Source: Candidatus Peribacteria bacterium RIFCSPHIGHO2_02_FULL_51_15
GTDB taxonomy: Bacteria; Patescibacteriota; Gracilibacteria; Peribacterales; Peribacteraceae
DNA: 40,561 bases
Reading direction: 5' to 3'
NCBI GenBank assembly: GCA_001788965.1
Contig: MFXU01000047.1
Span: forward strand, 1 to 40,561
In this document: piece by piece, positions 5,869-34,639 of the stretch
Layout: each line of letters begins with the position of its first letter
Position numbering within the stretch: position 1 is the first letter of the stretch
Program-made: the position numbers and the translations under genes
Notes under the pieces: generated by a model
The model's input: only the letters and a program-made list of their open reading frames with translations
The model's database searches: none
Told to the model about the DNA's origin: nothing

Positions 5869-5957
5869 CGGTAAGCAAACGCCTTCGTCTCAGTCGATCG
5901 GACCATTACCGAGGACGCCAGAAAAGAAGGAAGGTTGCGTTCTCTACTTCTTTTTTT
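5869..5957 (+). promoter_or_regulatory. Structured 5' leader of the zinc-ribbon gene
   Basis: Two hairpins are possible: CGGTAA against TTACCG across the first 50 bases, then AGAAG against CTTCT followed by eight or nine T, which looks like a weak terminator or attenuator just before the start codon. No known riboswitch was recognised. Confidence 0.4.
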
Positions 5958-5964
5958 TTATTAT

Positions 5965-6267
5965 ATGGCTGATCAGCAGATCACCTGCCGCGACTGCGGT
6001 AATGCTTTTACGTTCACCGAAGGTGAGCAAGCCTTTTATACCGAGCGTGGGCTCGCGGCACCGCAGCGTTGCAAGGACTGCCGCGTGAAGCGCAAAAACG
6101 AGCGGCTCAGTAACCGCCAGATGTATCCCGCTGTCTGCGCCAAATGCGGCGCGGAATGCGAGGTGCCGTTTAAACCGCGCCCGGAATCCGAAGGAGGCCG
6201 GCCGGTTCTCTGTCTCGCCTGTTTCAAGGCCGAGAAAGAAGCTGCCCCGGCTCAAAGCCCCGCCTGA
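5965..6267 (+). CDS. Small double zinc-ribbon protein
   Basis: 100-residue protein with two zinc-binding modules. The first matches the zinc-ribbon family ITCRDCGNAFTFTEGEQAFY ... PQRCKDCRVKRK (CxxC ... CxxC, residues 7-43). The second is CAKCGAEC ... LCLACF, two CxxC pairs about 21 residues apart, near residues 57-85. Such proteins are common in Patescibacteria; their function is not known, though nucleic-acid binding is plausible. The start at 5965 is preferred over 5935, which would translate the T-rich leader. It has its own promoter, a structured leader and a strong terminator at 6290-6315, so it is a single-gene unit. Confidence 0.85.
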   Translation: MADQQITCRDCGNAFTFTEGEQAFYTERGLAAPQRCKDCRVKRKNERLSNRQMYPAVCAKCGAECEVPFKPRPESEGGRPVLCLACFKAEKEAAPAQSPA

Positions 6268-6289
6268 TCGCGACAAAAATCCACAAAAG

Positions 6290-6315
6290 AGCCCGGGGAA
6301 AACCGGGCTTTTTTT
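6290..6315 (+). terminator. Terminator of the zinc-ribbon gene
   Basis: AGCCCGG (6290-6296) pairs with CCGGGCT (6303-6309), followed by a T run. Confidence 0.9.
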
Positions 6316-6328
6316 AAAAAAATTTTCA

Positions 6329-6424
6329 CCTTCCTTACCTTCCTTACCTTCCTTACCTTCCTTACCTTCCTTACCTTCCTTACCTTCCTTACCTTCCTTA
6401 CCTTCCTTACCTACCTTACCTTTT
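6329..6424. repeat. Tandem nonamer array, (CCTTCCTTA)n
   Basis: About nine to ten copies of a 9-base unit CCTTCCTTA in direct repeat, ending in slightly diverged units. The array runs into the 3' end of the next gene on the minus strand and supplies its TAG stop codon. The same unit or its one-base variant CTTTCCTTA occurs at 5768-5800, 10220-10307, 25783-25891 and 28193-28357. Confidence 0.9.
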
Positions 6425-7421
6425 CCCGTAATGCTTCCACCCCCTTCAAATCACAAACCAAAGTAGATTGCGTCACCCGGTGTACCGGTGTTTCCCCCGC
6501 CAGCCATTCATTAATCGAATGAAAAGACTCTTTATACATCTTTTGCGTGCTTTCCTCGGCATAAAAAGCGATATGCGGAGTTACCAGCACGTTGGGATGA
6601 CTGATCAGTTTTTCATTCCACTGGAAATCTTTTTCATGCTCCAGCACGTCAAGTAATGCATGCGAGATCTTCCCGTCGTCCAGAGCTTTAAGCAGCGCGT
6701 TTGAATCAATCAGCTCTCCCCGTGCCGTATTGATGATGATTGCCCCCGGTTTCATCTTGTTCAGCGCATGTTCGTTTATCAGGTGGTTTGTTTCCGGGAG
6801 AAGCGGCACATGCAGGCTTACTACATCGCTCAAACCCAGTACTTCCTCGAAATCCACATACTTAACCCCAAATTGAGTCTCCAGCTCGATAACCCGGCAT
6901 TTGTCGCAAGCCAGGATGTTCATGCCAAATCCGTGTGCGATTTTGGCCGTATTTATGCCGATCTTGCCGGTCCCTATTATCCCCATCGTTTTCCCCATAA
7001 GCGCCATCCCCCTAAGCCCGTGGTAATCGAAATTGCCTTCCCGGACCTGCGCTTTTGCCTCGGTGATCCGGCGCAACGCCGACAAGAGAAGGGCGAATAC
7101 ATGTTCGGCGATTACATGCGAGCCGTAATCCGGAACATTGCATACCGCGATATTCCGGGCTTTGCATGCATCGAGATCGATGTGGTTGAAACCCACTGAA
7201 CGGGTGGAAATCAGTTTCAGTTTGGGAAGTGACTTTATGACTTCCGCGGTAAATTTTGAATATATGAAACCGCTAACGACATCTTTATCCTTGCAGGCCC
7301 GGATGAGATCGATTCCGTTCAGAGATTCCGTGCGAATCTCGGCTTTGGGATATTGGTCCAGAACTGTTTTCAGGTCTTCGGAATCGACTTCAAGAAAGAG
7401 AATCGAAGGAGGCGGAGGCAT
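6411..7421 (-). CDS. D-2-hydroxyacid dehydrogenase (D-lactate dehydrogenase-like)
   Basis: 336-residue NAD-dependent 2-hydroxyacid dehydrogenase, soluble, reducing a 2-keto acid (probably pyruvate) to the D-hydroxy acid. The nucleotide-binding loop is MGIIGTGKIG (GxGxxG) near residue 150. The catalytic triad is visible: Arg in INTARGELID, Glu in LLDVLEHEK and His in VTPHIAFYAEE. Family resemblance is to D-lactate dehydrogenase, but substrate choice cannot be read from sequence alone. An in-frame ATG at 7475 would add 18 residues that merely translate a GAATTGA word repeat, so 7421 is preferred. The last codons (EKVR, stop) are encoded inside the CCTTCCTTA array. Confidence 0.9.
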   Translation of the reverse strand: MPPPPSILFLEVDSEDLKTVLDQYPKAEIRTESLNGIDLIRACKDKDVVSGFIYSKFTAEVIKSLPKLKLISTRSVGFNHIDLDACKARNIAVCNVPDYGSHVIAEHVFALLLSALRRITEAKAQVREGNFDYHGLRGMALMGKTMGIIGTGKIGINTAKIAHGFGMNILACDKCRVIELETQFGVKYVDFEEVLGLSDVVSLHVPLLPETNHLINEHALNKMKPGAIIINTARGELIDSNALLKALDDGKISHALLDVLEHEKDFQWNEKLISHPNVLVTPHIAFYAEESTQKMYKESFHSINEWLAGETPVHRVTQSTLVCDLKGVEALREKVR

Positions 7422-30645: not shown

Positions 30646-33600
30646 CTATCGCTCCAAAGGCGCATCCGACGAGTCTTTCACATCGGAACCGGAGAATTCC
30701 TGCGTCGTCAGGTAATCCACCGCGGCCTCCTTGGTGAGGACGAGGAACTTCGTAAGCGCGGCTTTCGTGAGCTCATCCTCGGGATCATATGTTCCGTCGG
30801 CATCCACGACCCCCAAATCCGCCAGGGTGTTGATTGTCTGTTGCGTATCCCGGGGCAGGCTTCCGATATCCTTGAATTGAGCGCTTGTTGCCGTCGCTTT
30901 GAGTTCCTCCGGAAGCAGATTAGCCGCGGCCTCGGCAAATTCCGCGCGGGTCACTGCCCCGTTTGGGTCCCGGTCAAACATACTCAAATCAATATCGGCC
31001 TGAGCGAGGCCGGCTACTGCCTCCTTGGCCCATTTCGGGTATGAAGCAAACTTCGCCGGCACATCGCCCTTCGCCGGCTCGATCCCCAAAGCGTTCGCGA
31101 GCATCTTCACCGCAGCGGCGTTATTGACGGCTAAAGCGGCGCCCAGCGTCCCGTCGGGATTACCGGTGACAATACCCTCCTCCTTGGCCTTCTCCGCGAA
31201 CCCGGCATACCACTCCGGGTTGAGTTTACTGACGTCGGCAAAGGGAGCGATGCCTTTCAGATACTCCTGCTCAACCGACTTCTTGACGAGCTTCTGGTAT
31301 TCGGCCTTGGCCGTATCCACGTTCTGACCGCTTGCCGCCTGCAAAGCCAGCTCAGCGGCTTTGTCCGCAATAGCACTGTCCGCGAAGTTGAACTGCCGGA
31401 TACTGTCAATGAGCTCCGAAACGACTGCTTTTGCGGAAGCCTTGAGCGCTGAAAGCTCGGCTTTCGCATCCTCGATTTCCTTGAGCAAACTTGTTTTGAG
31501 GTCAATCAAGTTCTTCATTTCGGTGATGCTCAAATCATCGGCAACAGCCAGAAGATCAGCGCTATCGCCTTCCTGGCCCGACTGGAACTCGAGGTACTCG
31601 TCGAGGGTGTCATCATCTTTTCCTTTGTAAAAATCCTGCAGGGTATCCATGCGGGTCATATCACCGCGGTCGAAGCCCTGCGTTTCAAAATAGCCCTTCA
31701 TTTTATCGTCATATCCGTGCTTCTGAGCGAAGTCATCGTAGATCTTCCCGTTATCCGGACCGAAGCCCATGCCAAGCCCGCCGGGAGTGGACTGCCACTG
31801 CCGCTCGCGCTCCATGAGTTCCCGCTGGACTCCGTCGAGAATGGCAAAAACCTGCTGATATTGTCCCGCATCCTGTGCCGCCCGCGCCTGCTCGACCGCT
31901 GCGAATGCCTTGGCCTGCAGCGTCTTCATTTGCTGGGCAACTACCGGATTCTTGGCCGCAATCTTAGCGATCATCTCGCTCGCGCTTTTGGCACCCAGCT
32001 CCATTTCCTTGATGTAGCGCGCCGTATCAGCCTTCATACTGACTGCCTGCGACTCGTAGAAGATGGCATCGAGTTTCATCCGGTAATCATTCATCTTCTG
32101 CTGAGATGTAAACTGGAGATTACCCATGTTCTCCGGTGATGCACCGGCTACCATCGCCTCCATGTCCTTACGACACTGGTTTCCCAGATCTTTGATCTTC
32201 TGCTCGGATCCCGGAGGCCCGAACATCGTGCTGAATTGATCGCAGTTTCTCTGCAATTCAGGCGCCATTCTTCGCAGCATCTGCTGCCCCATTGCCTGCT
32301 GCGTCGGCATCGGCTGATCAAAAGGGCCGGCGCTGTGATACCCATTCTGTCCGGACCCGTATCCGCCCTGATTATATCCGCCTTGATTTAAGCCTCCCTG
32401 GTTAAAATTACCCTGATAGTCACCATTCTGGTTATACCTATACCCGCCCGTCCCCCCTTGCGAGGCGCCGGCCGGATTACAGAGCGGACGGTTATTGTAG
32501 CTGCCCGCATTCATGCACCGTGGGTCACTGCAGGAAATCGTTTCCACCGGCGTGGCGCATGCCGGCGTGCTGAAGTGGCATGCCAGGCTGAGCGTGCAAC
32601 TCATGGATCCACCTTGCGTACCACCAGACATCGGCTGCCACCTGCAGGGATTCTGAGCTGTCGGAAATTCATTCGGTCCGCAATCGCGCATCGTGGGACT
32701 CGGCATGTCGCCGCCGTAGCAACGTGTCCTGCACGCCGCATAAGCCGGGTCGGACCCCGAAATCCCGCGGCTGCAGTCCGCGAAACACTGATCAGTACCT
32801 CCTTGCATAGAACCTCCGCCTCCCGACCATCCGGATTCGCCCCCGGAGCCTCCCTGGCTCCCGCCGGAGCAGTCGGCCGTTGCACCGTTGCTCCCGACTT
32901 CCTGGGACGAAAGGATGCGTCCGCCGGCCGATTCGCTGCAGTCGACGTGCGGGCTCCTGCACCAGAGGATCTTGCCGTTGGGATAGACGCACCTCATGCT
33001 CTGCGGTCCGCCGCCCCATCCACCGGAGGAGCCGCCGCTCATGGATCCCCCGACCGGGTAGCAGCCGGACGCCTCACCATTGAACGTAATCTGGCCGGAG
33101 ACCTGCAGAGAAGAGGTTTCCGACCCTTCGCGACAGTCTGTTTTGTCCGGTTTGCAATTCAACGTCCCACCCCACTGTTTACCTTGCGACACGCTGTACC
33201 ATTCCGCGGGGAAGAAACAACGTTGAACACCTGATGTACCGGTCGTTCCACTCGTACCGCTGCTTGTCGTAGTCGTGCCGCTGCGATTGCAGGTGTCGTA
33301 ACATGCCTGCCGTGTCTCCGGAGTGGCTGATGGCATCGCGTCACACCCCTGGGTGCACGACATGCCATTCATATCGGGGCTATAGTTCGTTCCGGAGTTG
33401 TAATTTGTCCCGCTCTTCATCTGCGCACACGTCCAGTTGCCGGATGTACAGCTGAAGGTCTCACAATCCGGCCAGTTTGGTTGTGTTTCGCATGTGCCAT
33501 TGGCGGGCATGCCCTGGTTTCCGCCGGTGTAACTTCCCATATTCGCGCAGCCCGATTCGCAGGTTGCTCTCATGCTGGCGCAATCCGTATTTTCCGGACA

Positions 33601-33786
33601 TGTCATGCTCGCGCAGCCCGAGATACACGCTTGCACCGGATCGGACTGCGCTCCGATCGTGAAAATTTGGTATGTCGTGCCCCCGATAACGCCGAAGACA
33701 GCCAGCGCTATCAGCACGTGCTGCGTTTGAATAGGACCCCTCAACACTTGGGCAGCTCGTCCCAGGACAGTATTACTTCGTGACAT
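30646..33786 (-). CDS. Large cysteine-rich surface protein with C-terminal SLH-like repeats
   Basis: 1046 residues. A basic N-terminus and one helix (HVLIALAVFGVIGGTTYQIF, 23-42) anchor or export it. Residues 50-445 are Cys-, Gly- and Ser-rich with more than 30 Cys. Three units there carry twin CX3C pairs: C54/C58 with C76/C80, C144/C148 with C162/C166, and C334/C338 with C352/C356. A Gly/Gln/Asn linker (NQGGYNQGGYGSGQNGY) leads to a long helical region (about 510-845). Three SLH-like domains follow (about 849-1025: FADVSKLNPEWY, NPDGTLGAALAVNN, FDRDPNGAVTRAEFAEA, YDPEDELTKAALTKFL). SLH domains bind cell-wall polymer or an S-layer, so this is probably a surface-layer-linked protein, disulfide-rich outside the cell. 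Confidence 0.85.
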   Translation of the reverse strand: MSRSNTVLGRAAQVLRGPIQTQHVLIALAVFGVIGGTTYQIFTIGAQSDPVQACISGCASMTCPENTDCASMRATCESGCANMGSYTGGNQGMPANGTCETQPNWPDCETFSCTSGNWTCAQMKSGTNYNSGTNYSPDMNGMSCTQGCDAMPSATPETRQACYDTCNRSGTTTTSSGTSGTTGTSGVQRCFFPAEWYSVSQGKQWGGTLNCKPDKTDCREGSETSSLQVSGQITFNGEASGCYPVGGSMSGGSSGGWGGGPQSMRCVYPNGKILWCRSPHVDCSESAGGRILSSQEVGSNGATADCSGGSQGGSGGESGWSGGGGSMQGGTDQCFADCSRGISGSDPAYAACRTRCYGGDMPSPTMRDCGPNEFPTAQNPCRWQPMSGGTQGGSMSCTLSLACHFSTPACATPVETISCSDPRCMNAGSYNNRPLCNPAGASQGGTGGYRYNQNGDYQGNFNQGGLNQGGYNQGGYGSGQNGYHSAGPFDQPMPTQQAMGQQMLRRMAPELQRNCDQFSTMFGPPGSEQKIKDLGNQCRKDMEAMVAGASPENMGNLQFTSQQKMNDYRMKLDAIFYESQAVSMKADTARYIKEMELGAKSASEMIAKIAAKNPVVAQQMKTLQAKAFAAVEQARAAQDAGQYQQVFAILDGVQRELMERERQWQSTPGGLGMGFGPDNGKIYDDFAQKHGYDDKMKGYFETQGFDRGDMTRMDTLQDFYKGKDDDTLDEYLEFQSGQEGDSADLLAVADDLSITEMKNLIDLKTSLLKEIEDAKAELSALKASAKAVVSELIDSIRQFNFADSAIADKAAELALQAASGQNVDTAKAEYQKLVKKSVEQEYLKGIAPFADVSKLNPEWYAGFAEKAKEEGIVTGNPDGTLGAALAVNNAAAVKMLANALGIEPAKGDVPAKFASYPKWAKEAVAGLAQADIDLSMFDRDPNGAVTRAEFAEAAANLLPEELKATATSAQFKDIGSLPRDTQQTINTLADLGVVDADGTYDPEDELTKAALTKFLVLTKEAAVDYLTTQEFSGSDVKDSSDAPLER

Positions 33787-33823: not shown

Positions 33824-34615
33824 CTACTTTTTCTTCTTCTTGAGCATTTGGATAAGAGGAATTTTCTTGGACTGCTGTCCGTCTACCGGGTTCTGCATTT
33901 CGACACCTGCCGGGATATTCGTTTCCGCCGGTACTGTGGGCTCCACTGGCTTGAGCGGCTTCAGCCACTTCCATTCACTCGGTGAAATGCCGGAACAGGT
34001 GATATCGGGCTCAAGCGAGAGATGCGTACCCGGATCAGCCGGCAAGCCGCGCACCCCGTCGGCATTGGCCCAGCTCCAGAAAGCAAAATTGAGCGCTCTA
34101 TTTGACCAGCAGCGCATTTCCTTCTGACTCGGGAAAACCGTTGCCAGCCATCCGGTGCAGTACCCCGACGACCCATAGTTTGCAAATCCGTTCTTGTCCG
34201 AAAATCCCTGACCAATGATGTAGACAGTCTGGTCCACCTCGGCCTTGGGAGACGGCCGCCAATACATGACATATTTTGTTCCTATGCCGATCTTCCCGTC
34301 CTCGATGACGGCGCCCTTCGTTACGTCAAACGCGACCCAGTCTCCATTCTCGTGGTAGTACGTCGCCGGATCCGCATTGACCGATGTGATTTCCCGCTGA
34401 TACATGTCATAGCACTTGCGCGTTGTGTAGACGTCAGTGGAGACGGCTGCCGATGACGAGGCAGCGCTGCCATAATTGCTGTATTGCGCATAGGTATAAT
34501 AATAGTGCACTGCGCTCTGGTAGAAGAAGAAAGCAAACGCAAGCACGACAATGCCGAATAATGTATTTTGCTTTGTACACGCATTTTGAATACGTTCTCG
34601 CACTGTTTGAACCAT
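33824..34615 (-). CDS. Membrane-anchored envelope protein, partner of the SLH protein
   Basis: 263 residues. A transmembrane helix (TLFGIVVLAFAFFFYQSAVHYYY, about 18-40), a Ser/Ala-rich stretch, then an exported globular part with four Cys (KCYDMYQREI, YCTGWL, RCWSNR, TCSGIS) and many Trp/Tyr. It ends in a Pro-rich segment (KPLKPVEPTVPAE) and a Lys run. Family unknown. It is the first gene of a two-gene operon with the SLH protein 37 bases downstream. Start 34615 is preferred to the ATG at 34639 because the consensus promoter (34640-34668) starts transcription near 34632, downstream of that earlier ATG. Confidence 0.72.
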   Translation of the reverse strand: MVQTVRERIQNACTKQNTLFGIVVLAFAFFFYQSAVHYYYTYAQYSNYGSAASSSAAVSTDVYTTRKCYDMYQREITSVNADPATYYHENGDWVAFDVTKGAVIEDGKIGIGTKYVMYWRPSPKAEVDQTVYIIGQGFSDKNGFANYGSSGYCTGWLATVFPSQKEMRCWSNRALNFAFWSWANADGVRGLPADPGTHLSLEPDITCSGISPSEWKWLKPLKPVEPTVPAETNIPAGVEMQNPVDGQQSKKIPLIQMLKKKKK

Positions 34616-34639
34616 GATTTTTATTGGTATTTCTTGCAT

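Follow-up and report, generated by a model that had tools for sequence, protein, structure and literature searches.

The Cys-rich SLH surface protein described here is probably exported and anchored to the cell wall, with an N-terminal arm of putative disulfide-bonded beads, including twin CX3C units that are probably alpha-hairpinin-like, a stalk, and a likely role in attachment. The protein has 1046 residues and is encoded on the minus strand at positions 30646..33786 of the window, the whole stretch of 40,561 nucleotides analysed, which corresponds to bases 1-40561 of contig 47 of a 1.18 Mb genome that is 97% complete. The gene is identified by its open frame, its SLH match and its orthologues. 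All features of the protein given below lie on the minus strand.

Layout of the SLH protein and its genomic setting

A hydrophobic segment, which may be a signal or a membrane anchor, was located by hydropathy at residues 24-41 (33664..33717) and is N-terminal in all seven aligned orthologues. The C-terminal part contains a helical stalk (residues about 496-843; 31258..32301) and an SLH wall-binding region (residues about 848-1020; 30727..31245). In the protein, SLH alone among Pfam families passes its threshold (residues 848-883, 41.1 bits vs. a cut-off of 20.8), and the SLH domain in the orthologues is at or above the curated cut-off. An NCBIfam search gave nothing useful. Over about 155 residues (865-1019), the protein can be aligned with the SLH region of Sap, an S-layer protein of Bacillus anthracis (about E 6e-7); in contrast to Sap, our protein carries its SLH region at the C-terminus, and the remainder of the two proteins is unrelated. 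The genome contains a single PS_pyruv_trans gene (E 2.4e-27). Judged by its family, this pyruvyl-transferase gene could encode a CsaB-like enzyme making the SLH ligand, a pyruvylated wall polymer.

Directly upstream of the SLH gene, after a gap of 37 bases, lies an ORF of 271 residues with a hydrophobic N-terminal segment (33824-34639, minus strand). We considered it as an operon partner and dropped this reading; the ORF is without a relative in 95 genomes. Elsewhere in the window, the minus strand at 5947-6450 holds an open frame of KEG repeats, which may be no gene but a simple repeat.

Twin CX3C units in the Cys-rich arm

The protein contains 36 Cys residues. The sequence-only reading had counted more than 30 Cys in about 400 residues, and we found 34 within residues 54-436; the other two, C515 and C538, form a pair in the helical stalk that is present in all seven orthologues. 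Six CX3C motifs start at residues 54, 76, 144, 162, 334, and 352 and pair into exactly three twin units (CISGCASMTCPENTDCASMRATCESGC, CTQGCDAMPSATPETRQACYDTC, and CFADCSRGISGSDPAYAACRTRC). The ORF, its frame, the residue numbers and the three CX3C-x17/x13 segments had all been read correctly. The range first assigned to them, 32718-33627, is one base too long, since the units extend from 33627, the first base of the C54 codon, down to 32719.

Unit 1 (C54-C80; 33547..33627) has an x17 spacer with two extra Cys, C63 and C69, in its interior. It is thus a six-Cys unit rather than a plain four-Cys unit. Unit 2 (C144-C166; 33289..33357) and unit 3 (C334-C356; 32719..32787) both have x13 spacers. 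When the arm was shuffled 20000 times with its own composition, at least three twin units appeared in about 0.07% of the trials (P about 0.0007), whereas a count of six or more single CX3C motifs was marginal (P about 0.05). These two figures bear in opposite directions on a rival explanation, namely that the twin spacing is incidental to a fast-evolving Cys-rich arm in which Cys pairing alone matters and no hairpin fold is defined. The marginal single-motif count agrees with incidental spacing, but the number of twin units argues against it.

Predicted structure

The AlphaFold model of residues 46-172 has a mean pLDDT of 54.5 and shows two helix pairs, 50-59/69-81 on unit 1 and 144-149/156-169 on unit 2, with a beta hairpin between them. 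The full-length model, with a mean pLDDT of 38.8, repeats both pairs (the last helix of unit 2 spans 156-168 in one run and reaches 169 in the other) and adds a third, 332-338/347-357, on unit 3. Both runs drew on a common alignment source and are not independent, and the alignment is shallow, consisting of the window protein and one orthologue (two rows for residues 46-172). Paired helices, the geometry proposed by the sequence-only reading, are therefore predicted on all three units at low confidence. Because confidence is low, the disulfide pairing is unreadable from the models.

Low model confidence is what incidental spacing would lead one to expect, but the predicted helix pairs coincide with the units, and little other helix is predicted in the arm: the full-length model shows a single five-residue helix in the remainder of residues 46-495. 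A Foldseek search of the PDB with the model of residues 46-172 returned only two matches, both to vicilin-leader hairpins, and with E values of 8.7 and 9.9 they are not significant and offer a hint only. In a fold search, the full-length model matched only coiled coils, and weakly. A profile of the unit compared with solved structures in the PDB gave a single meaningless match (E 6.4) and no hairpinin.

Orthologues and the module mosaic

Searching 96 genomes of the same family and class, we found long relatives in G002, G014, G005, G042, G038, and G028, and a profile of another module led to two further relatives in G008 and G022. Strict twin CX3C units number three in the window protein (G000), three in G028, and one each in G002, G038, and G014, with one clear unit in G008; CX4C variants also occur in G002 and G008. 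In G002, which has 37% overall identity, units 1 and 2 retain their Cys, Gly and Pro at the same places. C54, C58, C76, and C80 of unit 1 are conserved there, as are all four Cys of unit 2 in a CX4C-CX3C spacing. The spacing of unit 3 is kept in G038, and G005 and G042 carry a CX8C...CX4C variant at this place within similar flanking sequence. No twin CX3C unit was found in G022. Conservation of Cys spacing, on which the sequence-only reading had made its proposal depend, is thus partial: strict in some orthologues and relaxed or lost in others. The shifts to CX4C or CX8C and the absence of the spacing from some orthologues favor incidental spacing, but the conservation in G002 extends to positions beyond Cys. 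On balance, we consider it unlikely that the twin spacing is incidental.

The profile search for the twin unit in related genomes, suggested earlier, was successful within a narrow range. Among the 96 genomes, strong matches were confined to the SLH protein, in 4 genomes, and these are not independent evidence because the profile rows were drawn from the same orthologues. No match was found in 286 other genomes of the phylum at E 1e-4. The nearest named orthologue, found with a two-row alignment, is JACOTD010000046 from a Candidatus Peregrinibacteria genome, which makes it very probable that the host is a member of this group. A Sporosarcina SLH protein from the same named-genome search is unrelated and was not accepted as an orthologue.

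Alignment and module scan show the arm to be a mosaic of twin CX3C units, modules A, D, and B, and others, whose number and order vary. Module A, a CFYP-type four-Cys module, is present in all sequences scanned, and its profile has matches in 9 of the 96 genomes. Its first copy in our protein, found as a profile match, covers residues 190-242 (33061..33219), and its second, found by module scan and profile, residues 266-306 (32869..32991). Module D, with four Cys at residues 99-120 (33427..33492), is predicted to form a beta hairpin and recurs in G005, G042, G038, and G028. Module B has the form CSGSPPT..WC. Another genome, G037, encodes an SLH protein (L039:4372-7647, minus strand) in which a GSGGSGSGGS repeat runs very long and Cys-rich CGNGILEQGEQCDDGN-type repeats also occur.

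Comparison with small Tims and alpha-hairpinins

The sequence-only reading compared the units with the small Tim chaperones of mitochondria and quoted a spacing of CX3C-x11-16-CX3C. Units 2 and 3 fall within this range; unit 1, with x17, lies outside it. Small Tims share the twin CX3C motif and a helical hairpin, here predicted, but they are small, free, hexamer-forming chaperones (PMC3759932) with a hydrophobic client surface, whereas our units form part of an SLH protein of 1046 residues. The Tim family profile had no match in the protein (E<=0.1), in the orthologues (E<=1) or in single units (E<=10), within the limits that HMMER filters set on weak matches. Homology to small Tims was therefore rejected, in agreement with the earlier preference for convergence.

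The special likeness to small Tims did not hold up. There are only 2-3 hydrophobic residues per unit, the same spacing defines the plant alpha-hairpinins, and the only fold matches, although not significant, are to hairpinins. The units might still act as a small-Tim-like chaperone holding exported hydrophobic proteins, as the x13 spacing of two units and the predicted helix pairs would allow. Given the scarcity of hydrophobic residues, the missing Tim family match, and the short units fixed inside a wall-anchored chain, we regard such a function as very improbable.

The alpha-hairpinin motif is CX3C-x(4-20)-CX3C, folded as helix-loop-helix with two disulfides, and its members may have only Cys in common (PMC11591084). 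All three units fit this motif, unit 1 with its two additional loop Cys. Our units resemble plant alpha-hairpinins in spacing, in the predicted helix-loop-helix, in two putative disulfides, in variable sequence, and in being repeated inside larger proteins; vicilin-buried peptides, for example, are alpha-hairpinin units within a larger protein (PMC12497738). Unlike the units, plant alpha-hairpinins come from eukaryotes and are usually excised to become free peptides, and homology to them was undetected: a Pfam search of single units gave no match to the plant alpha-hairpinin family. Because the alpha-hairpinin motif fits and the Tim profile does not, the unit is probably a bead that functions in the manner of an alpha-hairpinin and resembles the plant proteins more than the mitochondrial chaperones. 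At the sequence level, descent from either family is not apparent.

Some plant alpha-hairpinins are inhibitors or antimicrobial (PMC11591084). The shared Cys motif raises the idea that neighboring cells are the target of the hairpins, which would be either released or displayed and act as antagonistic peptides or protease inhibitors. The likeness is an analogy of spacing only, however, the units are not notably basic, and neither processing sites nor an immunity gene were identified; we give this idea little credence.

Probable disulfides and oxidative folding

In seven sequences, the stretch from the hydrophobic segment to the SLH region contains 36, 30, 34, 62, 44, 40, and 36 Cys, and in G022 it contains 48. 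All eight complete sequences have an even number of Cys before the SLH region, as expected under full disulfide pairing; for independent sequences the chance of this would be 1 in 256, but as relatives they are not fully independent. A simple rule based on length defined the SLH boundary, and this matters only for G002, where one more Cys (966) lies inside the SLH region. The G008 sequence, cut by an assembly gap, has 48 Cys before the gap.

Two DsbA-like thioredoxin genes were found in the genome. One has an ordinary layout. The other (L064, genome contig 25, 6469-7254) has its C-terminal DSBA half (68-146) before its N-terminal thioredoxin half (174-261), and is either rearranged, permuted or an assembly artefact. 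The even Cys counts and the two genes support the earlier suggestion that the outer part is heavily disulfide-bonded. The oxidative folding system expected with it was found in part: DsbA-like genes are present, but neither VKOR nor DsbB was recognizable in the 97% complete genome. VKOR is above cut-off in 7 of 59 related genomes in a patchy distribution; the seven carriers of the SLH protein among those 59 (G000, G002, G005, G008, G014, G022, and G028) all lack such a match.

A DsbD/CcdA-like gene on the same contig was dropped as evidence of oxidative folding; it sits among copper-handling genes. Just beyond the window (L062; contig 47, 40000-58000), two tandem cupredoxin-like ORFs of 137 residues (725-1135 and 1572-1982), identical as far as printed, have as neighbors genes resembling heavy-metal P-type ATPases and a CcdA-like gene accompanied by an AhpC/TSA-type redoxin. 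This cluster is probably a copper-handling island.

It may be asked whether, in an anoxic habitat, the Cys remain in the reduced form and bind zinc or copper, so that the arm is a metal-binding surface layer. The missing DsbB and VKOR and the copper-handling island about 19 kb away on the same contig are in line with this, and the same twin CX3C motif serves small Tims in zinc binding when they are reduced (PMC3759932). However, Cys counts are even in every complete orthologue, the spacings among orthologues vary beyond what metal sites usually allow, the genome has DsbA-like genes, and the arm contains only two His. We therefore think a metal-binding arm improbable and favor disulfide-bonded beads.

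Discussion

We propose that a cell wall polymer is the ligand of the C-terminal SLH region and that the long helical stalk preceding this region raises the N-terminal 400 residues, which would form a string of small disulfide-bonded beads with Gly/Ser/Thr-rich linkers. Each twin CX3C bead would consist of two short helices and a loop, held together by a pair of disulfides for which C1-C4 and C2-C3 are the likeliest partners. Such a fold would resemble that of alpha-hairpinins and may have been arrived at independently. Rigid beads on flexible linkers, tethered to the wall through SLH, would present a surface that resists proteases and can change in evolution; its most likely use is in attaching to surfaces or to other cells. 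A structural and adhesive role is most likely, judging from the domain layout and from the proposal in PMC4736985. A more specific scheme is tentative: exchangeable, independently evolved beads on a wall-anchored adhesin of a Patescibacteria lineage, oxidized without DsbB or VKOR through an unrecognized DsbA-like partner.

Large, very Cys-rich extracellular proteins of Peribacteria, with a suggested role in attachment, were described in 2016, and S-layer genes and one disulfide-bond protein were reported for Ca. Peribacter riflensis (PMC4736985). The Cys-rich extracellular proteins of that organism belong to the same broad lineage and are likewise large, exported, very Cys-rich and of proposed attachment function. 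Among open-licence papers, in the portions accessible, we found no earlier report of the module mosaic or the hairpin units, which is weak evidence of absence. The module anatomy and the hairpin reading appear to be new, whereas the existence of surface proteins very rich in Cys in Peribacteria is on record.

Twin CX3C spacing by itself is no sign of Tim ancestry. Our findings raise the question of how the carriers oxidize many probable exported disulfides without a recognizable DsbB or VKOR. They also replace a published remark on surface proteins very rich in Cys by an anatomy that can be tested, with defined bead types, one of them probably a helical hairpin, and these bead types vary between genera in a protein that is likely to meet partner cells.
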